In this document: positions 69 to 25,060 of the stretch, in pieces | Position numbering within the stretch: position 1 is the stretch's first letter | Layout of the letters: each line of letters begins with the position of its first letter | DNA from: Acidimicrobiales bacterium | GTDB taxonomy: Bacteria > Actinomycetota > Acidimicrobiia > Acidimicrobiales > SZUA-35 | Direction of reading: 5' to 3' | NCBI GenBank assembly: GCA_020630065.1 | Contig: JAHDCC010000018.1 | Location: 1-33,747, forward strand | Length of the DNA: 33,747 nt | Position numbers and translations under genes: made by a program | The notes under the pieces: generated by a model | Told to the model about the DNA's origin: nothing | The model's input: only the letters and a program-made list of their open reading frames with translations | Databases searched by the model: none

Positions 69-1706
69 TTATGTAACGGTCGAACCGAAGTCCGAACCGA
101 AAAACTCGATTAACTTCTGTTCTGCTTGATCCCCAAAGAGAATCTCAGCCGCCTCGAAAAGTCCAGGCGACGACGTGATCTCTTCCTCCGGGATGGTCAG
201 ACTGATCTTGCTTCGACGACGGAGGAAATCATCTAGTTTGGTAACCATCTCCGTCTCTGCTGTATGGTGCAGCTCGACACGTAGGTAGTCGACGGCTTCC
301 ATAATGTTCTCTCCCATCGCCGGGTCGACCCGGATAGCGTCAAGCATGTCAAACGCTCGACGACCATACCGGCGCCATAACCGATCCGAGATCGGTTCGT
401 GACGAAACTCTTGACGGCCTTCGTCCAGCTTCATACCTTTCGCCTGACGATAGAACTGGTCACGAGACTCTTCGCTCGGCTCCCCGTACCAACAGCTCTT
501 CGGCTCAGAAAGAGTCATCCCTAACGACTCGGCGGCCTCGACAACTTCTTCTCCGACGTTCAAACAGTCGGTTAGTTTTCCACCGAATATCGAAACGACG
601 TTCTTAGTGTGGTCCACTTCGATTTCGTGTTTACGTGATAGCGATGTCCAGTCAACGTCTCGCTGATCGTCGCCATCGTTCTTAACCACCAACGGGCGGA
701 CTCCACAGCGCTCGGCGATAATACTGTTTTCCGTTAGCGGCGTATCCAGATTGAGTCGGGCGTTGATTTGTTCGAGAAGGAAGGTACGGTCCTGCCCACT
801 CACTTCGGTAACTACTTCCTCGACTCGGGTATCGGTTGTCCCAATGACAGACCTTGCACCCATAGGAATCACATAAAACAGTCGACCGGTGTCGTCGAAG
901 AAAGCCAGCACACGTTCTTCTGAAGTTAAGCGATCCACAATCAAATGGATGCCCTTCGAGTAGACGATACGATGCTCGGTTTTCAGTTGCCAAGACTCGT
1001 TCAGGCCGTCAATAAATGGGCCAGCAGCGTTTACTATCGTCTTGGCTCGCAACGACATCTCGGTATCACCTTCGATGTCTCGTAGCGTAGCCCTCCACGA
1101 CCCATCGATCTGTTCGGCAGAAACCAGTTCGACATAGTTGGCGGCTACCGCTCCGACATCCATAGCGGAACGAACGAAGCTGAACACAAACCGAGCATCA
1201 TTGTCTTTCAGATACGCATCGGCGTACTCCAAACCACCTTGGAGCGTTGCACTGTTAATCACCGGCTCAAGCCGCTCAATCTGACTCTTACTGACCGGAC
1301 GTGGAGGCTTTGTCTTGAAATTCCCTAACCCCCAGTAACCCACCGCTCCGAGAGTGGCCAGCCAACGAGACACCGGCGCCGTCTGATCTAACGCAGCCAG
1401 GAAACCTATTTCGGTCACGTTCGACGGATACGCATCCATCAAACGATTACGGCTTGTACACAAGTCTCTTACGAGAGAGAACTCGTAGTTCTCCAAGTAT
1501 TTGAAACCACCCCAAACTAAGTTCGACGAGGCCTGGCTCGTGCAACTAGCAAAGTCGCCTCGCTCGACAATGACTACAGAAAGACCCCTAGACGCAAGGG
1601 CAGCGGCGCTAACCGCCCCGTTGATGCCTCCCCCAACTATCAGAACATCAAATTTTCCGTCGTTGAGTCGACCAAGGTTGGTTGATCGTAAGGAAGCCCT
1701 AGTCAT
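69..1706 (-). CDS. FAD-dependent glycerol-3-phosphate dehydrogenase family protein (GlpD-like)
   Basis: This is a 545-residue flavoprotein of the GlpD/DAO family, expected to oxidise a polyol phosphate and pass electrons to the quinone pool at the membrane. The dinucleotide-binding motif GGGINGA lies near residues 25-31. The family features GTTDT, CGVRPL (keeping the arginine that aligns with E. coli GlpD Arg317) and SIFGGKLTD follow in order, and the length is normal. Around residues 60-73 it reads LVWGGFKYLE where E. coli GlpD has LIHGGLRYLE, so a histidine has become tryptophan and an arginine lysine close to the substrate pocket. The ATG start at 1706 has a GGGGAG ribosome-binding site 5 nt upstream. 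It is the last gene of the transporter operon, 27 bp after the SGNH hydrolase. The substrate may be a phosphorylated polyol other than glycerol-3-phosphate. Membership in the family is certain, specificity is not. Confidence 0.88.
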   Translation of the reverse strand: MTRASLRSTNLGRLNDGKFDVLIVGGGINGAVSAAALASRGLSVVIVERGDFASCTSQASSNLVWGGFKYLENYEFSLVRDLCTSRNRLMDAYPSNVTEIGFLAALDQTAPVSRWLATLGAVGYWGLGNFKTKPPRPVSKSQIERLEPVINSATLQGGLEYADAYLKDNDARFVFSFVRSAMDVGAVAANYVELVSAEQIDGSWRATLRDIEGDTEMSLRAKTIVNAAGPFIDGLNESWQLKTEHRIVYSKGIHLIVDRLTSEERVLAFFDDTGRLFYVIPMGARSVIGTTDTRVEEVVTEVSGQDRTFLLEQINARLNLDTPLTENSIIAERCGVRPLVVKNDGDDQRDVDWTSLSRKHEIEVDHTKNVVSIFGGKLTDCLNVGEEVVEAAESLGMTLSEPKSCWYGEPSEESRDQFYRQAKGMKLDEGRQEFRHEPISDRLWRRYGRRAFDMLDAIRVDPAMGENIMEAVDYLRVELHHTAETEMVTKLDDFLRRRSKISLTIPEEEITSSPGLFEAAEILFGDQAEQKLIEFFGSDFGSTVT

Positions 1707-1733: not shown

Positions 1734-2393
1734 TCATAGGATCTCCTTTACCTTCTGAGCGATGGATTGCCCCAGAACAATATTGGTTTCAGCAGTAAAG
1801 TGAACCCCGTCTACTCCATCGGTATGAATATGTTCACTCGCATCAATGAAGTCGATGCCAAAAACATCTGCAAGGTTTTTATACTTTTTGCCGAGAGCCG
1901 TAGTCTTTTCATAACCACCTTCGAACATGTCAGCAAACCACTCATTGGTGATTGGCGCAAGAGGTGGCGGGGCAACAAGAAGGGTTTGCGGAGCGGGGTA
2001 AGCTGTTCCTACGCCTCCGGCAGACGTGGCTACCTGAGTTAGCAGCCTTAGTACGCCGGTAGAAATCTCGTAAGGACTACGGTTGTAACATGCCTTAGTA
2101 TCGTTAGTACCTAACATGATGATCACCAAATCAAGCGGGTTGTGACTAGCGAGAGCAGAAGGTAAGTATGCACTGCCATCCAACCTCGGATCCATAAGAT
2201 CAACAAGGTCGGTCGTTCGAGCACTTAGACCCTCTTCAATAATTTCATACTCGTCGCCTAACTCATCTGACATAGCCCCGGGCCAGCGTTGGTCAAACGG
2301 ATAGCGTTCCGTGGGCAGAAGTAACTCTGTGGGAATCCACCCCCAGGTGAGCGAGTCACCGAAGCACATTATGCGTTTCTTTTTATTTAACAT
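1734..2393 (-). CDS. SGNH/GDSL-family hydrolase (esterase)
   Basis: A 219-residue SGNH hydrolase without signal peptide or membrane segment, so probably cytoplasmic. Block I GDSLTWGW carries the nucleophile Ser14, Gly55 in EEGLS is block II, GTND carries Asn97, and DGVHF supplies Asp195 and His198. All four catalytic blocks are therefore present and the length is typical. The GDSLTWGW form with a nearby RWPG resembles proteins often annotated as arylesterases. It sits between the distal ABC permease (32 bp upstream) and the GlpD-like gene (27 bp downstream) in the same direction, which suggests it removes an acyl or acetyl group from the imported compound or opens a lactone. That role is inferred from context. 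The ATG at 2393 is followed by a lysine-rich N-terminus. Confidence 0.85.
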   Translation of the reverse strand: MLNKKKRIMCFGDSLTWGWIPTELLLPTERYPFDQRWPGAMSDELGDEYEIIEEGLSARTTDLVDLMDPRLDGSAYLPSALASHNPLDLVIIMLGTNDTKACYNRSPYEISTGVLRLLTQVATSAGGVGTAYPAPQTLLVAPPPLAPITNEWFADMFEGGYEKTTALGKKYKNLADVFGIDFIDASEHIHTDGVDGVHFTAETNIVLGQSIAQKVKEIL

Positions 2394-2425: not shown

Positions 2426-3403
2426 TTACGAATTGGTCCTTAGCCCGTAGTACGTGGCAGCGAGCATAATGATGAGTCCTCGGGCGATGAGTTTGCCGGC
2501 ATCGGGAACGCCGAAACTGGTCATCACTACAAACAAAAGGGCGAAGGACAGAACCCCGAAAAATGGACCCCAGACGCCGCCGTCGCCCCGACCGAAAACA
2601 ACTCCGCCGAGTATGGTTGCGGCTACGGCTTCGAGTGGGAGGTCAGCTCCGAAACGGATGCTGCCGACGCCAAGCGATGAGGTCTGAACTAGCCCCGCTA
2701 TACCGGCCATCAAACCGGCAATCGTGTGGGCAATGATCACCGTGCGTTCGACTGGCACACCCGAGAAGTGGGCTGCTACCGGATTCTCACCAACCGAAGA
2801 CACATGACGTCCAAAGACAAACCGAGAGAGAAATACCGCCATTACACCGGTCAGCACGATCCAGAAAATAACGGGAGAAGGCAATGATAAGTACTTGACG
2901 TTGTACACATCGCCAAACGCGTCGGGCACATTGCCCGGGGGTTTTCCACTTGCAAGAAATTGGACAACTCCGACCAGAATCGTGTTGACCGCAAGTGTGA
3001 CCAAGACAGCCGACGCTCGACGCTTTCCTATCAACAACCCGTTAACCAATCCAAGCGAAACACCGATGGCCAACGCAACTATGACTAAAAGGCCAGCGTT
3101 CGCGTCACCAAGTATTCCTGATGAAATCACGTAGTTAATTATGAGCACAACACCAGCGCCGGATAAGTCGATCGAACGAACACGCATGACCAGGAGTTGG
3201 CCAAGCACCAAAATCCCGAGCGGAGCTACTTGGCGAATAAAAGTACCCATTACGTTGATGTTGATCATCTGCGGGCGAGTCAACCAGAGCGTCACCAACA
3301 GGATCACAAACACGAAGTAGGCCGGAGGCACCTTGGCGGCTCGACTCAGAAGAGTTTCACGAGCCGCTTTAGAGCTAGAGGGTATCTTTACAGCAGCAGT
3401 CAT
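2426..3403 (-). CDS. Sugar ABC transporter permease, RbsC-like (second permease)
   Basis: A 325-residue integral membrane protein of the BPD_transp_2 (RbsC/XylH) family, with about eight to ten hydrophobic segments. The family's cytoplasmic coupling region is visible near residues 258-280 (EAVAATILGGVVFGRG followed by GPFFG). The N-terminal RSIDLSGAG is a degenerate version of the usual GGIDLSVGS. It begins 2 bp after the stop of the other permease, so the two are co-translated and should form a heterodimeric channel. The ATG at 3403 is the natural start. The partners are the ATPase at 4377-5885 and the binding protein at 6000-7202. Confidence 0.9.
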   Translation of the reverse strand: MTAAVKIPSSSKAARETLLSRAAKVPPAYFVFVILLVTLWLTRPQMININVMGTFIRQVAPLGILVLGQLLVMRVRSIDLSGAGVVLIINYVISSGILGDANAGLLVIVALAIGVSLGLVNGLLIGKRRASAVLVTLAVNTILVGVVQFLASGKPPGNVPDAFGDVYNVKYLSLPSPVIFWIVLTGVMAVFLSRFVFGRHVSSVGENPVAAHFSGVPVERTVIIAHTIAGLMAGIAGLVQTSSLGVGSIRFGADLPLEAVAATILGGVVFGRGDGGVWGPFFGVLSFALLFVVMTSFGVPDAGKLIARGLIIMLAATYYGLRTNS

Positions 3404-3405
3404 TG

Positions 3406-4380
3406 TTATAGACCTATTTTCTTACGGGACTGCAACGCCACAATGACGAGCAGAATCGAACCTTTGATGATGGTTTGCACGAAGGCTGAAACGTTGCCCA
3501 AGTTCATACCGTTAGCCAACAATGTCATCATGACTACTCCAATGATCGTGCCGTGCAGACTTCCGACTCCGCCGGTTAGTTGGGTACCACCGATAGCGAC
3601 AGCCGTGATCGAATCAATCTCTAGGAGGAGCCCGACATTCGGATCACCTGACACAATCCGACCAGCGAGAAAGACTCCGGCTACAGCAGCAAAAGTAGAA
3701 CACAACACATAGGCCAAGACTACGTTACGACGATCGGCGACACCGTATTTACTAGCTGTGTCTTGACGATCAGCGGCGACGCCTCCACCAATAGCAAACA
3801 GGTGTAGCCCGAAGCGGGAGCCATGAATCAGTTTCCAACCCACGAAGACAGCGGCCGCCAACCACAGCACGGAGAGTCGTCCAGAGACGGACTGTTTGAC
3901 GATTTCTGGGATGACCCCTCCGGCTGTAGGGAGCAAGATCAGTGTGATACCACGCAAAATAATCTGCATCGACAGAGTCGCAATAATCGGGTGTACGTTA
4001 AGCCGAGTAATTGCTAGACCGTTGATCAAACCGATCAGTCCTGCTACCAGAAACACCGTAGGTAACAGCACATACCCTGGAGCATCGAGCGCCAATATGG
4101 CAGTTGTCAAACTCACAACCGACCCGACAGACAGGTCAAGGCCGCCTACCAGAATCACTAACATCTGACCCAAGCCGACCAAAAGAAGCGGAATCGCTTG
4201 GGTGATCAAATTGAGTAAGTTCTGAGGGTTACGAAAACCATCAACCCCGATAAGCAACCAAAGAAAGCCTAAACAGCCAATGGTGAGTGGCAGGAACCAC
4301 AATCCCTGCCGTGAGTCCTGACCGGTCAGGAGCCTGCGAAATGTCACTATCATTTTTCGATCCTGTCGAATAGTCTTCAC
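3406..4380 (-). CDS. Sugar ABC transporter permease, RbsC-like (first permease)
   Basis: A 324-residue polytopic protein of the RbsC-type permease family. It has the canonical GGLDLSVGS motif near residue 80 and ITAVAIGGTQLTGG with GTIIG near residues 257-280. It starts at a GTG (4380) that overlaps the ATPase stop as GTGA, showing translational coupling. The first 30 residues are basic and polar before the first membrane segment. This copy is closer to the family consensus than its partner. It forms the membrane channel together with the product of 2426-3403. Confidence 0.9.
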   Translation of the reverse strand: MKTIRQDRKMIVTFRRLLTGQDSRQGLWFLPLTIGCLGFLWLLIGVDGFRNPQNLLNLITQAIPLLLVGLGQMLVILVGGLDLSVGSVVSLTTAILALDAPGYVLLPTVFLVAGLIGLINGLAITRLNVHPIIATLSMQIILRGITLILLPTAGGVIPEIVKQSVSGRLSVLWLAAAVFVGWKLIHGSRFGLHLFAIGGGVAADRQDTASKYGVADRRNVVLAYVLCSTFAAVAGVFLAGRIVSGDPNVGLLLEIDSITAVAIGGTQLTGGVGSLHGTIIGVVMMTLLANGMNLGNVSAFVQTIIKGSILLVIVALQSRKKIGL

Positions 4381-5885
4381 GCTGCGCTGGTTTGAGTACC
4401 AAGGGCAGCGTCAAGAATTTTGTGTTCGGTTGCTTCGGCGGCGGGCATTTCACTGACGATCGTGTTGTCATGGACAACACATAGCCGGTCGCACAGACCA
4501 ATCAATTCGATGGTTTCTCGGGACAAGACGATGATCGCCCCGCCGCTGTCGGTGAAGTCGCGAAGCAGCTGATAGATTTCAGCTTTCGCCCCGACATCGA
4601 CACCACGGGTGGGTTCCTCAATCAGCAGGATCTCGACCTCAGATGCCAGGTAACGACCTAACAGCACTTTCTGCTGGTTTCCGCCAGAAAGTGAACTAAC
4701 CAACGAATCTGCACTCGGGGCTTTAACCGCCATGCTCGACATGGTCTCAGCCACCGTCTTGTGGTGCCCCTGAGCCCAAGACAACTCGGACTTAGATGAG
4801 TGCAGGCCAATAGAGGTGTTGAAACCTATTGGAAGTTCCAAGAAAAGGCCTTCGTCTTTTCGGTCTTCGGGAACAAACCCGACACCCATGCTTTGCAGAA
4901 GACGAATACCACCGGTTTGTGGCACCGGTATCGGCAGCGACGTGCTGTTTATCGTGACCGATCCGGCATGAGGTTGGTGCTGACCGACAAGAGACCGCAG
5001 AAGCTCCCGCTGGCCCTGTCCTTCCAACCCGGCGAGACCGACGATCTCACCTTTATGAACTGACAGTTCCAGCGGTTCTGCTTCAGGAGAAACCTGAAAA
5101 TCTTTGATGGTCAAGACAGACTCGCCGGTACCGACTGATTTGTTCGGGAATAAGTCGTTTATATCCCGGCCAACCATCATGGCTATTAGAGACTGCTGCG
5201 TAACCTCGGACAGTGGACACGAGTCGACATTTCGACCATCTTTGAGAACAGATACCGTGTCACAAATTTCGAATATCTCTTCCATCCGATGTGAGATATA
5301 TACGATCGCTTTCCCACGATCCCTCAAGCTACGAATATGCCGGTTGAGTGTCTCGACGTCGGCCGCATTAAGAGCAGCGGTCGGCTCATCTAAGATAACG
5401 ACATCCGCGTCGGCGGTGATACCATGCGCTATTTCGACAAACTGACGTTCAGCAATCGACAGCTCCGAAACCAATGTGGTTGGATCTAGATCCAGACCGA
5501 GTTCGGCTATTGCGTTGGCGGTCAGGGACTCCATAGTGGCGCAGTCGACGCGTCCGAGTTTAGTAACCGGCTCCTTCCCTAAATACATATTCTCGGCGAT
5601 TGACAGATTGGGAAGTAGAGACAGCTCTTGGAATACAGTGGACACGCCATACTCCAAGGCCTCTTTTGGAGTGCGCATGTGTACCGCTTTACCATTCCGA
5701 TGGATTGAGCCGCCGTCGGGCTGGACCACACCGGCGAGTATCTTCATGAGTGTCGATTTACCAGCCCCGTTTTCACCTACCAAGGCGTGAACTGAACCTG
5801 AAGCTAGTTCAAGTGACACATCGTCTAGGGCGACGTTGCTATCAAACGCTTTCGAAATGTTTGACATTCGTATTAGGGGTTCCAC
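4377..5885 (-). CDS. Sugar ABC transporter ATP-binding protein, RbsA/MglA-like tandem ATPase
   Basis: This protein energises carbohydrate import and has two ABC domains in one chain of about 502 residues. The first has Walker A GENGAGKST near residue 40, the signature-like LSIAERQ and Walker B VILDEPTAAL. The second lacks Walker A, as is normal in RbsA (GLEGQGQREL instead), but has the signature LSGGNQQK and LLIEEPTRGVDVG. I prefer the GTG at 5885 because GAGGA stands 6 nt before it. An ATG at 5903 would add six residues but has no Shine-Dalgarno sequence, and a third choice is the ATG six codons after the GTG. The gene follows the binding protein after about 115 bp that contain a hairpin, and overlaps the first permease by GTGA. 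Confidence 0.93.
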   Translation of the reverse strand: MEPLIRMSNISKAFDSNVALDDVSLELASGSVHALVGENGAGKSTLMKILAGVVQPDGGSIHRNGKAVHMRTPKEALEYGVSTVFQELSLLPNLSIAENMYLGKEPVTKLGRVDCATMESLTANAIAELGLDLDPTTLVSELSIAERQFVEIAHGITADADVVILDEPTAALNAADVETLNRHIRSLRDRGKAIVYISHRMEEIFEICDTVSVLKDGRNVDSCPLSEVTQQSLIAMMVGRDINDLFPNKSVGTGESVLTIKDFQVSPEAEPLELSVHKGEIVGLAGLEGQGQRELLRSLVGQHQPHAGSVTINSTSLPIPVPQTGGIRLLQSMGVGFVPEDRKDEGLFLELPIGFNTSIGLHSSKSELSWAQGHHKTVAETMSSMAVKAPSADSLVSSLSGGNQQKVLLGRYLASEVEILLIEEPTRGVDVGAKAEIYQLLRDFTDSGGAIIVLSRETIELIGLCDRLCVVHDNTIVSEMPAAEATEHKILDAALGTQTSAA

Positions 5886-5939
5886 ATGGTCCTCATTACA
5901 CATAAATGTTCATGGGTCGGGTTAGACACAGATGAGTTG

Positions 5940-5999: not shown

Positions 6000-7202
6000 T
6001 TAGCCCTCGCCGTAGAATTCCTGAAGCTCTTCTTCGCTTAGCTCAGATGGCCACCAGACGTTGGCCGATAGATCTGGGCGGTGGAACTCTTTAGCCTTAT
6101 CGACATCCCAGGCTGGAGGTTCGTAGACATAACGTTTGCTTAGTTCTTCACCTCGAAGGAGCGCCGTTGCCGCCCGAACTCCCGCTGCACCTTGGGCAGG
6201 TGAGTACTCGGCTGAAACAGATGGATACCCTTCTTCAATCCATTGACCGAAATAGCCGTTGTTGCCTTCGCCAGAGATAGGAGGAATTTCTGCACCAAAC
6301 TCTTTAAAGACGTCGACGCATGCTCGAGTCATGTCGGCTCCAGAAGACCAAATTCCGTCGACGTTAGGATCATTTAGATACAAGGTTTCACAAACGCTCT
6401 TAGCTGTGTCGTATTGCCAATCCCCAACTTCTTCGGCGGCAATGGTTATGTCGCTACCTTCGAATGCCTGTTGCATACCCCGATATCGATTGATGTCTTC
6501 TGGGTGTCCTTGAAGGCCGCGCAGCACCCAGATGTTTCCTTCACCACCAAGTTCGTCTACCAAGAATTCACCCATAACTCGGCCAAAGTTCTCGGCTCCA
6601 CCTTGAATATCGACGGTGTAGTTGTCGGTCTTTGTCCGACCAGTATGAACAATGACGGGAATGCCTGCTTCGACCGCTTTCGCTATTCCAGGGTCAGCGG
6701 AAGTTTCGGTTACGGGCATGACGATAAGGGCATCGACTTCTTGAGCGATGAGGTCCTCAATATCGGCTACTTGTTTAGCCTGATCGAAGTCGGCATCGAG
6801 CATGATGAACTCTTCGATCTGGTCATCTTTAGCGGCAGCGGACTCCGTCTCATGGGCCAGCTGAACCGTCCAGGTGTTAGCGTTAACACCGAAGTGGCTC
6901 ATACCGATTTTCCATGGCCCCTCAGTTTCGAAAGCTCCAGCTTCGACAATGCTGTTGTCGTCTGGCCGTGGACTAACGCCTTCCATCAAACCGGTCGGAT
7001 TTCCGACCACCTCCTGTGGAGGTTCTCCTGACGACCCATCACCGGAATCGGCTTCGGTTGTTTCAGTGTCCGTGCCAGTATCCCCAGTGGCCGAGGCGTC
7101 ACTCGATGCTGAAGAGCAGCTGGCAGCTACAAACGCCAGTGCACATAACAGCATTAGATATTTTCTCAGCGGAGGCATCCCCCCGGAATTCTTCTTTCTC
7201 AT
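6000..7202 (-). CDS. Sugar ABC transporter substrate-binding lipoprotein
   Basis: A periplasmic-binding-protein type 1 lipoprotein (Peripla_BP_4 / RbsB class) of 400 residues that captures the substrate for the adjacent importer. The ATG at 7202 is chosen because GGGGAAAGGG precedes it by about 4 nt and because it gives a short basic N-terminus. A longer frame open to 7367 would put 55 uncharged-to-basic residues before the signal peptide. The signal segment ends in the lipobox VAASC, and the mature end is a Ser/Thr/Asp/Glu-rich linker of about 45 residues. The domain starts at WKIGMSHFGVNANTW. Typical elements follow: DADFDQAKQVADIEDLIAQ, DALIVMP, IPVIVHTGR and a hinge region with NRYRGMQQAF. 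The ligand is not predictable from the sequence. Confidence 0.9.
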   Translation of the reverse strand: MRKKNSGGMPPLRKYLMLLCALAFVAASCSSASSDASATGDTGTDTETTEADSGDGSSGEPPQEVVGNPTGLMEGVSPRPDDNSIVEAGAFETEGPWKIGMSHFGVNANTWTVQLAHETESAAAKDDQIEEFIMLDADFDQAKQVADIEDLIAQEVDALIVMPVTETSADPGIAKAVEAGIPVIVHTGRTKTDNYTVDIQGGAENFGRVMGEFLVDELGGEGNIWVLRGLQGHPEDINRYRGMQQAFEGSDITIAAEEVGDWQYDTAKSVCETLYLNDPNVDGIWSSGADMTRACVDVFKEFGAEIPPISGEGNNGYFGQWIEEGYPSVSAEYSPAQGAAGVRAATALLRGEELSKRYVYEPPAWDVDKAKEFHRPDLSANVWWPSELSEEELQEFYGEG

Positions 7203-7373
7203 ATTTCCCTTTCCCCTGACCTTGTTGGCCATCTGTTGTTCGACAAGACAATCTGCTGGTCGACTTACCACCGCTAGTGGACGTATCAAGCTAGATGAAG
7301 CTTTTGCCACCGTTAACGACACACCCCTGCGGGCGCTGATAGTGACGTGTTCACCGTCACCTCTCATGGATTA

Positions 7374-7402
7374 ACAGTATGAAAAGGTGCCAGACTCAAC
7401 AA
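7374..7402 (-). promoter_or_regulatory. Candidate promoter of the ABC transporter operon
   Basis: On the minus strand TTGTTG (7402-7397) and TACTGT (7379-7374) are separated by exactly 17 bp. The -10 fits the relaxed actinobacterial TANNNT pattern and the -35 is weak, as expected of an activator-dependent promoter. The motif at 7425-7439 is centred roughly 65 bp upstream of the predicted start of transcription. Confidence 0.35.
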
Positions 7403-7424
7403 TTGGGTTTTGCCCCCAGCCGAA

Positions 7425-7439
7425 TACTCCTTAGGAGTA
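7425..7439. promoter_or_regulatory. Candidate response-regulator binding site (perfect 7-1-7 palindrome)
   Basis: The 15-mer TACTCCTTAGGAGTA has perfect 7-bp arms around one central base. Near-copies occur upstream of the histidine kinase operon (11150-11181), so the two-component system in this locus is the obvious candidate to bind it. LuxR-family response regulators commonly bind short inverted repeats. Binding itself is inferred. Confidence 0.5.
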
Positions 7440-7507
7440 GTCCGCAGGACTCGACGATTCGGGGCGACGGATAGTTCTTGACGTAAAAGAGTGGTCGCCC
7501 AACTAAC

Positions 7508-7533
7508 TCGATGCTGGTTTAAACCAGCATCGA
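7508..7533. promoter_or_regulatory. 26-bp perfect palindrome, candidate operator
   Basis: The half-site TCGATGCTGGTTT is repeated without error as its reverse complement, with no spacer. It lies about 120 bp after the FGGY kinase stop and 75 bp upstream of the candidate response-regulator site. It lacks the central CG of LacI-family operators and has no U-tract on either strand, so an intrinsic terminator is unlikely. A palindrome this long without a gap suggests a dimeric repressor whose gene is not in this window. Confidence 0.5.
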
Positions 7534-7561
7534 CTGACTGCTCCACGAGGGTTCCACTCAC

Positions 7562-7598
7562 CAAATATTTGATGCCTCGCACCGCGGTGAGTACTCAC
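7562..7598. promoter_or_regulatory. Three closely packed perfect palindromes
   Basis: CAAATATTTG (7562-7571), CACCGCGGTG (7580-7589) and GTGAGTACTCAC (7587-7598) are each perfect. The last two overlap by 3 bp. They lie between the kinase stop and the 26-bp palindrome. Each alone could arise by chance, but together they mark this stretch as a likely protein-binding region. Confidence 0.35.
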
Positions 7599-7652
7599 GT
7601 AGGTCGAAACCGAACCTCTACCCGATACTACGAAATAGAAGGAAGCTGACGC

Positions 7653-9137
7653 CTAGGTCTCCCAGTGTTGGGCCCGTCGAACCGCTTTTTTCCAAAGCAC
7701 ATATCGGTGTTCTCGCCGATCGGCCGATGTCCTAGGTTCAAACGTGGCATTTGGCCTATGCATTCCGCTCGCTTCTTCGAGCGATGCCCAAAACCCGACG
7801 CCAACTCCGGCACGAAAAGCTGCCCCGATGGCCGCCGAGTCGGTAAAAGCAGAACGCTCCAGAGGTACCCCTAGCGTGTCCGCCAAAATCTGCATCAAGA
7901 CGTCTGACGCTGAGGCCCCGCCTGTTACCCGGATTGAGGAAATGACCTGACCTGAGCCTGACGATACGGCTTGAAGCATATCCCGCACCTGAAAGGCCAT
8001 TCCTTCAAGTACGGCTCGAACAATGTTAGCTCTCGTTGTTTCTTGTCCGAGACCGATTAGGAGACCGGTAGCGTAAGGGTCTGGCGGCATCGCCAAACCG
8101 GCAAACGCAGGAACAAAAACCACGCCACCGCTATCGGGAACCTGCGACGCGATGCCATCTACTTCGGTCGGATCACCGATAAGGCCCAGTCCTGACTGTA
8201 ACCATTCGACCGCCGCCCCGGATACGTTTGCGCTACCTAACGCTCCGTAGACAACTTCGAATCCGTCGGCATCAACCACGATCGGCAACACGCCCGGGCC
8301 TTCACAAACCTCGCCGGTGTTGTTTAGGAGAAACGCTCCGGTACCTAACGAAAGTGTTGTGTCCCCGATTCTGGTCGAACCAGCACCGAGAGCAGACGCC
8401 GGAATATCACCGAGAACACTCGAAATAGGGACTTCAACATCAAAGAGTTCTCGACTTGTGACACCATAAATGTCACCTGATGGTCGGATCTGTGGCAGAA
8501 CGGCTCTTGGCACTTCAACCAGAGAAAGCAGTTCGTCGTGATAGGTCAGTGTGTGCAAATCGACGAGTTGGGTTGTGGCGGCGCTGGCGTAGTCGACCGA
8601 AAATATTTGGTTGCCAGAAAGGTTCGCCAAGATCCAACTACTCATTGAACCGGCTGCCACGTTGCCTTGAGCCACGCCGGATTGGACAGCAAAGTCATTG
8701 TCTATCAACCACTTGATTTTCGGGCCTGTCGCATTCGTGACAAACGAACCTGCCAGCATTGCGGCTACTTTTTCGGTCCGCGTCGAATTGAGCAACTCGC
8801 ACATGCCTCGTGTTCGGTTGTCCTGCCAACTGACCGCTCTTCCAATCGACCGTAAGTTGGATCGATTCCAGACAACGGCAGTTCCCATTTGGGCGCACAG
8901 GCCGATCGCCTCTAGCTGGTTAGGCGACACTCGGGCGTCTGCGAGCGCGACGCGAGCTGCTTCTAACGTGTTCGACCATATTTCCTCAGCGTCTTGTTCT
9001 ACCCAACCCCGTTGAGGGAAATATCTGGGGACTTGACGGACTGATCGAGCGACGACTTCGCCTTCATAGTTGAGCACAACGGCTTTCGAGTACGTCGTAC
9101 CCTGGTCGATCCCTAAAACGTATCTGTGTAGCGTCAT
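7653..9137 (-). CDS. FGGY-family carbohydrate kinase (GlpK-like, probably not glycerol-specific)
   Basis: A 494-residue sugar kinase that phosphorylates an imported polyol or sugar with ATP in the cytoplasm. The N-terminal GIDQGTTYSKAVVLN is the FGGY ATPase-fold phosphate loop. VSWQDNRT, GPKIKWLIDN, GDIPASALG (holding the catalytic-base aspartate), LSLGTGAF and the C-terminal VTGGASASDVLMQ follow in the GlpK order. Where glycerol kinases have NQRET, whose Arg and Glu bind glycerol, this protein has AQMGT. The GlpK segment APYWDPYARG is MPPDPYATG here. Glycerol is therefore an unlikely substrate. The ATG at 9137 overlaps the response-regulator stop as ATGA and places the first strand of the domain next to the N-terminus, so I reject the upstream start at 9173. 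Confidence 0.9.
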   Translation of the reverse strand: MTLHRYVLGIDQGTTYSKAVVLNYEGEVVARSVRQVPRYFPQRGWVEQDAEEIWSNTLEAARVALADARVSPNQLEAIGLCAQMGTAVVWNRSNLRSIGRAVSWQDNRTRGMCELLNSTRTEKVAAMLAGSFVTNATGPKIKWLIDNDFAVQSGVAQGNVAAGSMSSWILANLSGNQIFSVDYASAATTQLVDLHTLTYHDELLSLVEVPRAVLPQIRPSGDIYGVTSRELFDVEVPISSVLGDIPASALGAGSTRIGDTTLSLGTGAFLLNNTGEVCEGPGVLPIVVDADGFEVVYGALGSANVSGAAVEWLQSGLGLIGDPTEVDGIASQVPDSGGVVFVPAFAGLAMPPDPYATGLLIGLGQETTRANIVRAVLEGMAFQVRDMLQAVSSGSGQVISSIRVTGGASASDVLMQILADTLGVPLERSAFTDSAAIGAAFRAGVGVGFWASLEEASGMHRPNATFEPRTSADRREHRYVLWKKAVRRAQHWET

Positions 9138-9775
9138 GCAGTGCCCGAACCGTCCAACCCGAGTTCCATACATTTTCTCACTAGGCTTGCCGTGTTCGGA
9201 ACGTCGAATTTACGTAAAGCCGCTTGTCGCTGTTTCTGAACGGTTTTTAGACTTGTGTTGAACTTGGCTGCGATCTGTTTCGTGGAGCAGCCGGCAACAA
9301 TGAGTTCGGCGACTTCTCGTTCACGAGGCGATAGCAAGTCGACCGGTGACGGCTCAGCAGTTTTTGTCGGCCCTAGAAACGCCGCCGCCACCTCGGAGCT
9401 CAGGTATACACTTCCGCGATGCGCCCCTCTAACCGCTGCAACTAGCTCATCGCTGACCGCCTGTTTAAGGACGTACCCTTTTGCGCCGAGGGCTAAAGCT
9501 CGTTCGACGGTTGAGATATCGTCCTGCATAGATAGGACAACAACGGCTGGCTGACCGTGCTGGGTCGACATTTTTTCCATAACTTCGATACCGCCCATTT
9601 CCGGCATCGACATGTCGAGGACTAGTACGTCAGGTTGGAACTCTGTGAGAATTTGTTCAACGTCACAACCGTCTTCGCCTTGAGCGACTACCTCGAAATC
9701 TGCTTCCTCCATAAGTAGGCGCCCGATTCCGTCTCGAACAATGTGATGGTCGTCTACAACCGCTATCCGAATCAT
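9134..9775 (-). CDS. Response regulator, REC plus LuxR-type HTH
   Basis: A 213-residue NarL/FixJ-type transcription factor. The receiver domain (1-120) has acidic residues Asp8-Asp9, the phosphoacceptor Asp54 in LVLDMSMPE, Ser82 and Lys104. The LuxR helix-turn-helix (148-205) begins LSPREREVAELIVAG and has the recognition helix around SLKTVQKQR. The ATG at 9775 overlaps the histidine kinase stop as ATGA, and its own stop overlaps the sugar kinase start as ATGA. All three are therefore translated from one message. It should be phosphorylated by the kinase next door and control the uptake operon, probably through the TACTCCT/AGGAGTA sites. Confidence 0.95.
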   Translation of the reverse strand: MIRIAVVDDHHIVRDGIGRLLMEEADFEVVAQGEDGCDVEQILTEFQPDVLVLDMSMPEMGGIEVMEKMSTQHGQPAVVVLSMQDDISTVERALALGAKGYVLKQAVSDELVAAVRGAHRGSVYLSSEVAAAFLGPTKTAEPSPVDLLSPREREVAELIVAGCSTKQIAAKFNTSLKTVQKQRQAALRKFDVPNTASLVRKCMELGLDGSGTA

Positions 9776-10998
9776 CCGCTTCCCTCACCATATAGTGCCT
9801 GCTTCTTGAGCGGAATCGTACCTTCCAATCGGACGCCGCGGCCAAGAGTAGCCTCGATCTCGACCTGTCCATCCAGCATGGCAAACCGTTCTCGAATCCC
9901 TAGCAGTCCGGACCCTCCCTGGTTAGCGTCGTCGAATCCGTTGCCGTCGTCTTCGACCGTGATCGTGACTTCTTCATCATCAGCAGAAAGAGAAACCCAC
10001 GCGGTCGAAGCCTCGGCGTGACGGGCGATGTTAGTCAGCCCTTCCTGCAAGAGTCGATACAGCGTGGTGGAATAATCATCGTTCAAAACGCCGGGCGGGT
10101 TGTCGGCCTCGAATATCACGCGGATGCCTGTCCGTTCAGAAAATACTGAACAGAATTCGGTCATTGCTCCATCCAACGATTTCGTTTTCAATGAAGGTGG
10201 GTTGAGTTGATGGAGAACTGTCCGCATCTGCCTCATAAGCGAAGTTGCGAGTTCGGATGCGTTATCAGCTCGTTCCCGAAGTTTCTGATCCTCAGCCTGG
10301 CGGGCGAGTCCACGAAGTTCGAGAATTAGTCCGGTAAGTGCTTGACCGGTCTCGTCGTGAAGGTCTCTTGAGATTCGCCGTCGCTCATCTTCTTGAATGG
10401 TCATCGCTCGAGAAAGTGAACGGCGTAGATCTTCCTCTGCCACGACCCGACGATCGACGTTTCGCTGCCAAAACACATACACATCCGAACATTCGGTTGG
10501 CCGTATATTGATCTCCCACCAGTTTCCGTCGTGGTCGACAAAGTCGACTTCTCTACCCGTACGCCGTACTGCGTTTAGCATCAAGCGTCGATGTTGTGCT
10601 TTGTCTGGCGGAAGCAAGTCGAAGAGATTAGTCTCCGCGCTGATTTCCTCGATATTGAGGTACTCGGCTCCGGCCTGATTGTTCCACAACAACAGGCCTG
10701 TTTCATCTACCAGCCACACGGGGTTTGTGGTCGCTTTGAGAACTGACCACCCTAACGTCTCCGGCAGATGAGGCTTTGTAGTATCGGGTTGGGAACACAT
10801 CTGAGCACCTATCGCTGACATGGAACCTCGGTGACGCAGCAAACCTGCGAGCTTAAGCGAACCACGAGATACACAGTCAAAGCCAACTTCATCATGTTGA
10901 TCGGCGACTAGTAGTTCATCCTTGAGCGAGGGGAAACCTGGGGGTTCGCTACTCAGACGCCGAATAGCTGTACCTCGTGAAAGCACCGAGGAAATCAT
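9772..10998 (-). CDS. PAS-domain sensor histidine kinase, NarX/DegS type, soluble
   Basis: A histidine kinase of the HisKA_3 class. From an ATG at 10998 it has 408 residues. A PAS domain (about residues 85-180) is followed by the dimerisation helix RRRISRDLHDETGQ, with the phosphoacceptor His at about 214. The ATP-binding domain has N-box QEGLTNIARHA, G1 DDGNGFD and G2 GLLGIRERF. No membrane segment exists, so it senses something inside the cell, perhaps a metabolite bound by the PAS domain. The start is uncertain: a TTG at 11037 lengthens it by 13 residues, and an ATG at 10821 behind a GAGG sequence would remove 59 residues of unclear function and still keep the PAS domain. Its stop overlaps the response regulator. 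Confidence 0.9.
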   Translation of the reverse strand: MISSVLSRGTAIRRLSSEPPGFPSLKDELLVADQHDEVGFDCVSRGSLKLAGLLRHRGSMSAIGAQMCSQPDTTKPHLPETLGWSVLKATTNPVWLVDETGLLLWNNQAGAEYLNIEEISAETNLFDLLPPDKAQHRRLMLNAVRRTGREVDFVDHDGNWWEINIRPTECSDVYVFWQRNVDRRVVAEEDLRRSLSRAMTIQEDERRRISRDLHDETGQALTGLILELRGLARQAEDQKLRERADNASELATSLMRQMRTVLHQLNPPSLKTKSLDGAMTEFCSVFSERTGIRVIFEADNPPGVLNDDYSTTLYRLLQEGLTNIARHAEASTAWVSLSADDEEVTITVEDDGNGFDDANQGGSGLLGIRERFAMLDGQVEIEATLGRGVRLEGTIPLKKQALYGEGSG

Positions 10999-11104
10999 GA
11001 TAGCACACGGGAATTCAGCGGCTCTATGTCTATCCAAGGGGCTTCATCCGAAGCTATCCCCTGGCGACTGGGGGGTACGTCACATTTTCTTGCCATTGTG
11101 GGAC

Positions 11105-11133
11105 ATGGTATGGCTATGGCCTGTCCGGTTCAA
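11105..11133 (-). promoter_or_regulatory. Candidate promoter of the histidine kinase-response regulator-kinase operon
   Basis: On the minus strand TTGAAC (11133-11128) and TACCAT (11110-11105) are 17 bp apart, a good match to a housekeeping promoter. Transcription would begin near 11098, giving a leader of 60 to 100 nt depending on the start codon used. Confidence 0.5.
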
Positions 11134-11149
11134 TTAGGTGTCTGCCCCA

Positions 11150-11181
11150 TACTCGATTACTACACATACTCCTTAGTAGTA
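11150..11181. promoter_or_regulatory. Two candidate response-regulator sites upstream of the regulator operon
   Basis: TACTCCTTAGTAGTA (11167-11181) differs by one base from the perfect palindrome at 7425-7439. A weaker version, TACTCGATTACTACA (11150-11164), lies 17 bp away centre to centre. Both stand upstream of the -35 at 11128-11133, which suggests autoregulation by the response regulator. This is inferred from similarity alone. Confidence 0.45.
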
Positions 11182-11316
11182 CGAAACTATCTCGGCGCCT
11201 CGGACTTTGGAGGTGCCCGCTAGGCGGTGAACAACCTATTAACTAACATCGCTAACGGTCGTGGCTGGAGTTTCCCGACGGTTCACTTTGCAGTGGACTA
11301 CTAAGGGAGATTTCCA

Positions 11317-11619
11317 ATGTCATCATTCAAGAAACTAAGTGCACTCGTTCTCGTACTGGGACTTACCGCTGCGGCGTGTGGCTCAGACGCCGACGAGGTT
11401 ACAGAGGACAGCACCGCTGCAGAGAGCGAGACCGAGACAACCGAAGCCATGGAAGACGGCGACAAAGACGAAGACGCCATGGAAGACGAAGAAGCCATGG
11501 AAGACGGCGACAAAGACGAAGACGCCATGGAAGACGAAGAAGCCATGGAAGACGGCGACAAAGACGAAGAAGCCATGGAAGACGAAGAAGCCATGGAAGA
11601 CGGCGACAAAGAGGGATAG
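11317..11619 (+). CDS. Small acidic repeat lipoprotein
   Basis: A 100-residue exported lipoprotein. MSSFKKLSALVLVLGLTAAAC is a textbook lipoprotein signal with the lipidated Cys at 21. The mature part is almost wholly Asp, Glu, Ala, Met and Lys with no hydrophobic core, so it is probably disordered and strongly negative. Residues 44-100 are three 16-residue units of AMEDGDKDEDAMEDEE and a partial fourth. A GGGAGA ribosome-binding site precedes the ATG, and a strong terminator follows about 45 bp after the stop, so it is a monocistronic transcript. It is transcribed away from the histidine kinase operon. I do not recognise a family. A role as an acidic surface coat, cation binder or spacer would be speculation. 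Confidence 0.85.
   Translation: MSSFKKLSALVLVLGLTAAACGSDADEVTEDSTAAESETETTEAMEDGDKDEDAMEDEEAMEDGDKDEDAMEDEEAMEDGDKDEEAMEDEEAMEDGDKEG
11446..11619 (+). repeat. 48-bp in-frame tandem repeat, 3.6 copies
   Basis: Units lie at 11446-11493, 11494-11541 and 11542-11589, with a partial unit at 11590-11619. The first two are identical and the third differs by one base (GAC to GAA). Each unit itself contains two GCCATGGAAGAC blocks spaced 30 and 18 bp apart. The near-identity at DNA level points to recent expansion by slippage or recombination. Confidence 0.95.
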
Positions 11620-24998: not shown

Positions 24999-25035
24999 AA
25001 CTTACCTTTTGTAAGTTACTTACTTAAAGTAAGTA
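24999..25035. promoter_or_regulatory. Double operator for the HxlR regulator
   Basis: Two palindromes share the form ACTTAC-N5-GTAAGT: AACTTAC-CTTTT-GTAAGTT (24999-25017) and TACTTAC-TTAAA-GTAAGTA (25017-25035). Both have perfect 7-bp arms, and their centres are 18 bp apart. The second covers part of the predicted -10 and the first lies just downstream of the transcription start, a classical repression layout. No similar pair was seen elsewhere in the window. Confidence 0.75.
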
Positions 25036-25060
25036 TAAGTTGGACGCGTCGAATTCGCAA
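25032..25060 (-). promoter_or_regulatory. Promoter of the azoR-hxlR operon
   Basis: On the minus strand TTGCGA (25060-25055) and TATACT (25037-25032) are 17 bp apart. The -10 has five of six consensus bases. The operator at 25017-25035 overlaps the -10 and start region. Confidence 0.6.

Follow-up and report, generated by a model that had tools for sequence, protein, structure and literature searches.

We found that the upstream regions of two adjacent operons in this contig share a rare inverted repeat, with a perfect copy upstream of the genes of a sugar-type ABC importer and a near copy upstream of the genes of a two-component system. These two dyads most likely form a locus-specific pair of operators for the NarL/LuxR-type response regulator encoded between them. 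The reading that we favor, with a probability of roughly 0.6, is that the histidine kinase phosphorylates this regulator, which in turn would control both its own operon and that of the importer. This would most likely be ordinary local autoregulation combined with transporter control, and a local regulator that governs itself and its transporter is a well-known principle. We infer both the binding of the regulator to the dyads and activation as the sign of the control. Coordinates are collected in Table 1 and refer to the window, i.e., the whole stretch of 33,747 nucleotides that was analyzed.

Table 1. Genes of the cluster and proposed binding sites, in window coordinates
Position	Strand	Feature	Remarks
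69..1706	-	GlpD-like FAD-dependent oxidoreductase	Below GlpD cut-offs
1734..2393	-	GDSL-type hydrolase	
2426..3403	-	ABC permease	BPD_transp_2
3406..4380	-	ABC permease	BPD_transp_2
4377..5903	-	Sugar-type ABC ATPase	AraG/RbsA-like
6000..7202	-	Sugar-type substrate-binding lipoprotein	Start probably ATG 7202
7425..7439	.	Perfect 7-1-7 dyad TACTCCT-T-AGGAGTA, TACTCCTTAGGAGTA	Proposed operator of the transporter operon
7438..7452		Possible weaker half-sites TAGTCCG (7438-7444, +) and GAGTCCT (7446-7452, -)	Each 5/7; speculative
7653..9173	-	FGGY carbohydrate kinase, GlpK-like	Below GlpK cut-offs
9134..9775	-	Response regulator, receiver and GerE/LuxR-type HTH	NarL/FixJ type; proposed dyad binder
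9772..11037	-	Histidine kinase, HisKA_3 and HATPase_c	Pfam, NCBIfam; start uncertain
11150..11164	+	Direct TACT-type half-sites TACTCGA and TACTACA	Each 5/7; beside the second dyad, no dyad copy
11167..11181	.	One-mismatch dyad TACTCCT-T-AGTAGTA, TACTCCTTAGTAGTA	Proposed operator between the - strand kinase-regulator operon and the + strand lipoprotein gene
11317..11619	+	Short acidic lipoprotein-like gene	Transcribed divergently from the kinase gene

On the minus strand, the genes for the histidine kinase, the regulator and the GlpK-like kinase follow each other in overlapping frames and, after a gap of ~450 bp that holds the first dyad, are followed by those for the binding protein, the ATPase, two permeases, the GDSL hydrolase and the GlpD-like oxidoreductase. 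Because the second dyad sits in the divergent region that separates the kinase gene from the lipoprotein-like gene, it may serve both. The lipoprotein-like ORF contains repeated MED-type stretches and had no Pfam match. A GlpK-like kinase and a GlpD-like oxidase next to a sugar-type ABC importer suggest, from their sequences, the uptake, phosphorylation and then oxidation of a polyol or glycerol-like compound. The compound sensed would be a polyol, a sugar or a glycerol-like compound: the adjacent histidine kinase would detect this substrate or its state and phosphorylate the regulator, a dimer of which, centered at 11174, would set the expression of its own kinase-regulator-GlpK-like operon, while a dimer centered at 7432 would switch on the importer/GDSL/GlpD-like operon. 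If so, the dyad would be the operator of an uncharacterized two-component system, and the tie of a GlpK/GlpD-like sugar-type ABC cluster to a single regulator would help to identify its substrate.

The sequence bears out both the perfect palindrome and the one-mismatch copy described in the earlier note (0 mismatches in TACTCCTTAGGAGTA, 1 in TACTCCTTAGTAGTA). These are the sole matches in the window at up to three mismatches from the dyad; since 20 of 100 shuffles also reach at least two matches, this window-only count is weak evidence. A stronger contrast is found in the whole genome (3,698,950 bases or 3.70 Mb, in 81 contigs), where TACTMCTNAGKAGTA, a pattern covering both dyads, occurs without mismatch in two places, both of them in the cluster. 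Allowing one mismatch adds a single place (none for the reversed control), located inside a mechanically called 290-aa ORF, and the mismatch-free pattern is absent from all 38 other family genomes searched. The looser pattern TACTNNTNANNAGTA returns only the same two places in the genome, against one for its reversed control. From the single other place at one mismatch or fewer, we estimate after the fact that ~0.002 chance copies would be expected within 4 kb of the first dyad.

The pair could also be two unrelated short inverted repeats brought together by chance, which we consider improbable. Shuffling the intergenic stretches of the window (3309 bases by our gene map) produced a perfect dyad with a near copy, with arms of 7 and a gap of 0 to 4, in just 2 of 2000 cases, and neither loosening described above brought in more than one additional place. 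On the other side, the search patterns and the shuffle rule were fixed only after the sites had been seen, and arms of 6 instead of 7 give 14 dyads and two near-copy pairs in the same stretches. The earlier note had proposed a genome-wide scan for the motif as a check: without mismatch, the covering pattern stays within the cluster, and the perfect dyad at up to two mismatches is found in six places, equal to the six of its reversed control. The four of these outside the cluster all fall in, or at the end of, mechanically called ORFs of at least 60 aa, which does not by itself prove that they are coding. Because the patterns are confined to this cluster within the genome and the shuffles so rarely yield such a pair, we conclude that the motif is local and not random, and that it forms a genuine, locus-specific link between the upstream regions of the two operons. 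The equal counts at up to two mismatches speak against a site of a genome-wide regulon. A rare site is shared upstream of both the regulator operon and the target operon, which is the arrangement expected of the operator of a local regulator.

Comparison of the two upstream regions with the dyad included gave a similarity reached by 18 of 500 shuffles. An extended promoter similarity downstream of the dyad (GGGGCA...ACC...AATTG), attractive by eye, was dropped as not significant, since 198 of 500 shuffles were as good.

The local regulator has the features of a NarL/FixJ (LuxR-type) response regulator: a receiver domain (PF00072, E 7.9e-26) with the conserved residues D8-D9 (acidic pair), D54 (phospho-aspartate), S82 and K104 assigned by sequence, a GerE/LuxR HTH at residues 147-200 (PF00196, E 1.6e-12), and a partner kinase, encoded by the adjacent gene, with HisKA_3 (PF07730, E 1.2e-15) and HATPase_c (E 8e-11) domains. 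A HisKA_3 partner is usual for regulators of this class, although not strictly defining. In the kinase, Pfam recognized neither a sensor nor a membrane domain; the N-terminal part of the protein looks like a PAS domain by eye only. Of the ten cluster proteins that were scanned, the regulator is the sole one recognized as DNA-binding, which makes it the best candidate to bind the dyads.

A regulator encoded elsewhere, of the LacI, GntR, DeoR or another type and perhaps a repressor, could use the dyads instead, with the local regulator acting at other sites. A perfect odd-centered dyad suits several DNA-binding families, and the recognition helix of the local regulator does not match that of NarL: NarL contacts bases through K188, V189 and K192, where the aligned residues here are Q180, K181 and Q184. 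However, a regulator with a wider role should have left more sites than the one other place found at up to one mismatch, inside the 290-aa ORF, and no second DNA-binding protein was recognized among the ten cluster proteins. We regard this option as rather unlikely and as the less economical one. Assignment of the dyad to the local regulator, as the earlier note had it, keeps the locus-specific link, the sole DNA-binding protein of the cluster and the fit of the half-site to a NarL heptamer in its favor, while the 7-1-7 spacing, the recognition helix, the weak promoters and the lack of orthologous loci in the genomes searched (see below) count against it.

Escherichia coli NarL gave the best solved-structure match to the regulator (E 2.4e-24) and shares with it the receiver and the GerE/LuxR-type HTH. 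According to PMC7419079, a NarL dimer occupies short inverted heptamers arranged as 7-2-7 sites, and the heptamer is given as TACYYMT in PMC4886647, a consensus that the half-site TACTCCT fits. Unlike the NarL sites, both dyads here have a spacer of 1 instead of 2, and the window holds no gap-2 TACYYMT pair within two mismatches in all. Given this spacing and the Q/K/Q residues, the half-site may resemble the NarL heptamer by coincidence, and identical recognition is not to be assumed. The regulator also scores only 114.2 bits against an equivalog cut-off of 250, and the genes controlled would be others, with no nitrate link seen in the cluster.

Other systems of this kind resemble the cluster in part. 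UhpA, also a regulator of the NarL type, activates a transporter gene, and the transporter of the UhpB/UhpA system is a sugar-phosphate antiporter. Both E. coli UhpB and UhpA matched (115.1 bits for the kinase and 120.2 for the regulator), although under the curated cut-offs of 408 and 258 bits, and the cluster has an ABC importer and a GlpK-like kinase in place of the antiporter. The best NCBIfam matches were MctS and MctR of rhizobia, a two-component pair adjoining the transporter gene mctP according to PMC9100948, and similar in having a regulator pair beside a transporter gene; the scores (131.6 bits for the kinase and 143 for the regulator) are far below the curated cut-offs of 700 and 300, and the rhizobial transporter is a symporter instead of an ABC importer. 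Bacillus subtilis ComA, of the same regulator class, uses the element TTGCGG either as an inverted repeat (spacer of 4) or as a direct repeat (spacer of 5), as described in PMC4797271. The combination of a dyad with direct TACT half-sites found here might be similar, although the element is TACT-based and the dyad spacing 7-1-7. It is tentatively conceivable, though we lean against it, that a regulator of the NarL type whose recognition helix has diverged reads the TACT-based 7-1-7 dyad together with direct half-sites and so controls the GlpK/GlpD-like ABC uptake cluster. Such an operator geometry would be unlike those of the NarL and ComA sites compared. Apart from the mildly unusual 7-1-7 spacing and diverged helix, the arrangement is an ordinary one.

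The direct half-sites come from a stretch (11150-11164, TACTCGATTACTACA) that had been proposed as a weaker copy of the dyad. By hand count, only 6 of its 14 arm positions match, and a reading as two direct TACT half-sites suits it better. The surrounding 11150-11184 is the densest region of TACT/AGTA words in the window (5 per 35 bp), three of the five belonging to the second dyad. The partial copy reported at 11297-11306 is exact as a 10-mer, but with one mismatch allowed, 8 of 100 shuffles equal or exceed its number of matches in the window, and the 10-mer overlaps AAGGGAG, a likely Shine-Dalgarno sequence that is probably the ribosome site of the plus-strand lipoprotein-like gene. Next to the first dyad, a small dyad AGTCC-GCA-GGACT (7439-7451) directly adjoins it, with the two weak half-sites around it.

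The claim that the dyads stand upstream of -35 elements could not be upheld. A promoter consensus scan of 7000-11600 found one site against 2.5 expected, near neither dyad and with nothing downstream of either, and looser matches were no better than shuffles. For the kinase gene, the best looser match was TTGAAC-17-TACCAT (8/12), and 20% of 300 base shuffles have a best score as high; for the binding-protein gene, they were ATGAGA-17-CACTAT (7/12) and TTGTTG-17-TACTGT (6/12), where shuffles average 6.65. Taking the 8/12 guess for the kinase and the 6/12 guess for the binding protein, the dyad centers would lie near -76 and -65, respectively, about one helical turn apart by our own arithmetic. 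These positions are compatible with activation, but with promoter guesses this weak they are no evidence by themselves. NarL likewise has sites upstream of its promoters: PMC7419079 describes one just upstream of the -35 element at yeaR-yoaG and others at -44.5, -67.5 and -77.5 in ogt promoter derivatives, and the last two of these activating positions are close to the ones guessed here.

The position of the first dyad depends on the start of the binding-protein gene, which is probably at 7202. There, an ATG is preceded by the Shine-Dalgarno-like AGGGGAAAGGG and followed by a signal peptide with an AASC lipobox recognized by eye, while the listed ORF begins at 7367. The first dyad is therefore ~220 bp upstream of the gene, not 58. 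Candidate starts of the histidine kinase are TTG 11037, ATG 10999 and ATG 10821, and codon-position G+C singled out none of the three.

The first dyad could also be read as RNA, i.e., as a small hairpin in the transporter transcript acting on translation or termination. The minus strand of 7405-7465 folds into a three-way junction, one hairpin of which is the dyad (-25.1 kcal/mol, z -2.60, equalled by 2 of 200 shuffles), but overlapping sliding windows at the same place reach only z -1.59 and -1.45. The mismatch in the second dyad makes for a weaker hairpin (z -0.63 on one strand and -0.76 on the other), and there was no Rfam match. A role as RNA is very unlikely on these figures. Further upstream in the same gap, between the GlpK-like kinase and binding-protein genes, lies a perfect 26-bp palindrome (TCGATGCTGGTTTAAACCAGCATCGA, 7508-7533), a strong hairpin (z -4.36, window 7532-7472) that might mark the end or a processing point of a transcript, or else serve as an operator. 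Elsewhere in the genome, its 18-bp core recurs at three places, each time with three mismatches, and the reversed control also gives three.

No locus orthologous to the cluster was found in the genomes searched (family, class and phylum samples, and genome contigs). Counting its own, 24 of 39 family genomes had a match to the regulator at E 1e-30, with 30-40% identity in the other genomes. Apart from its own, a sample of 395 class genomes gave six regulator matches with E 1e-38 or lower, the best at 42% identity. Scanning those six short class loci and one further locus for dyads (at least 11 of 14 arm positions, gaps 0-3) gave two matches in all, each of them with 11/14 and gap 2. The GlpK-like kinase had no match beside its own at E 1e-130 in the 395 class genomes, nor did the binding protein at E 1e-60 in 396 phylum genomes; in these class and phylum searches, scoring was limited to 7, 3 and 4 candidates per genome for the regulator, the GlpK-like kinase and the binding protein, respectively, so that weaker relatives may be missed. 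Among genome contigs, the regulator had only 10 distant relatives (22-35% identity). In plasmids, it matched 1953 records and the GlpK-like kinase 968, all below 60% identity; the best among the matches listed were 38.8% and 41.9%, respectively, and glpK was annotated in 14 of the 15 listed for the kinase.

The repeats might also be scars or ends of an inserted cassette carrying the kinase, regulator and GlpK-like genes, a segment that they flank in the same orientation. The lack of matches to the GlpK-like kinase in the class sample and to the binding protein in the phylum sample, at the cut-offs used, would agree with this origin. However, the three genes between the repeats include no transposase or integrase, and the G+C content of the cluster (0.526) is like that of its surroundings (0.534 and 0.538), which leaves a cassette hardly credible beside an operator pair of the local regulator.

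Elsewhere in the window, 25017-25051 is a further stretch rich in TACT/AGTA words (4 in 35 bp), and it includes an intergenic perfect dyad, CTTACTTAAAGTAAG, at 25019-25033.
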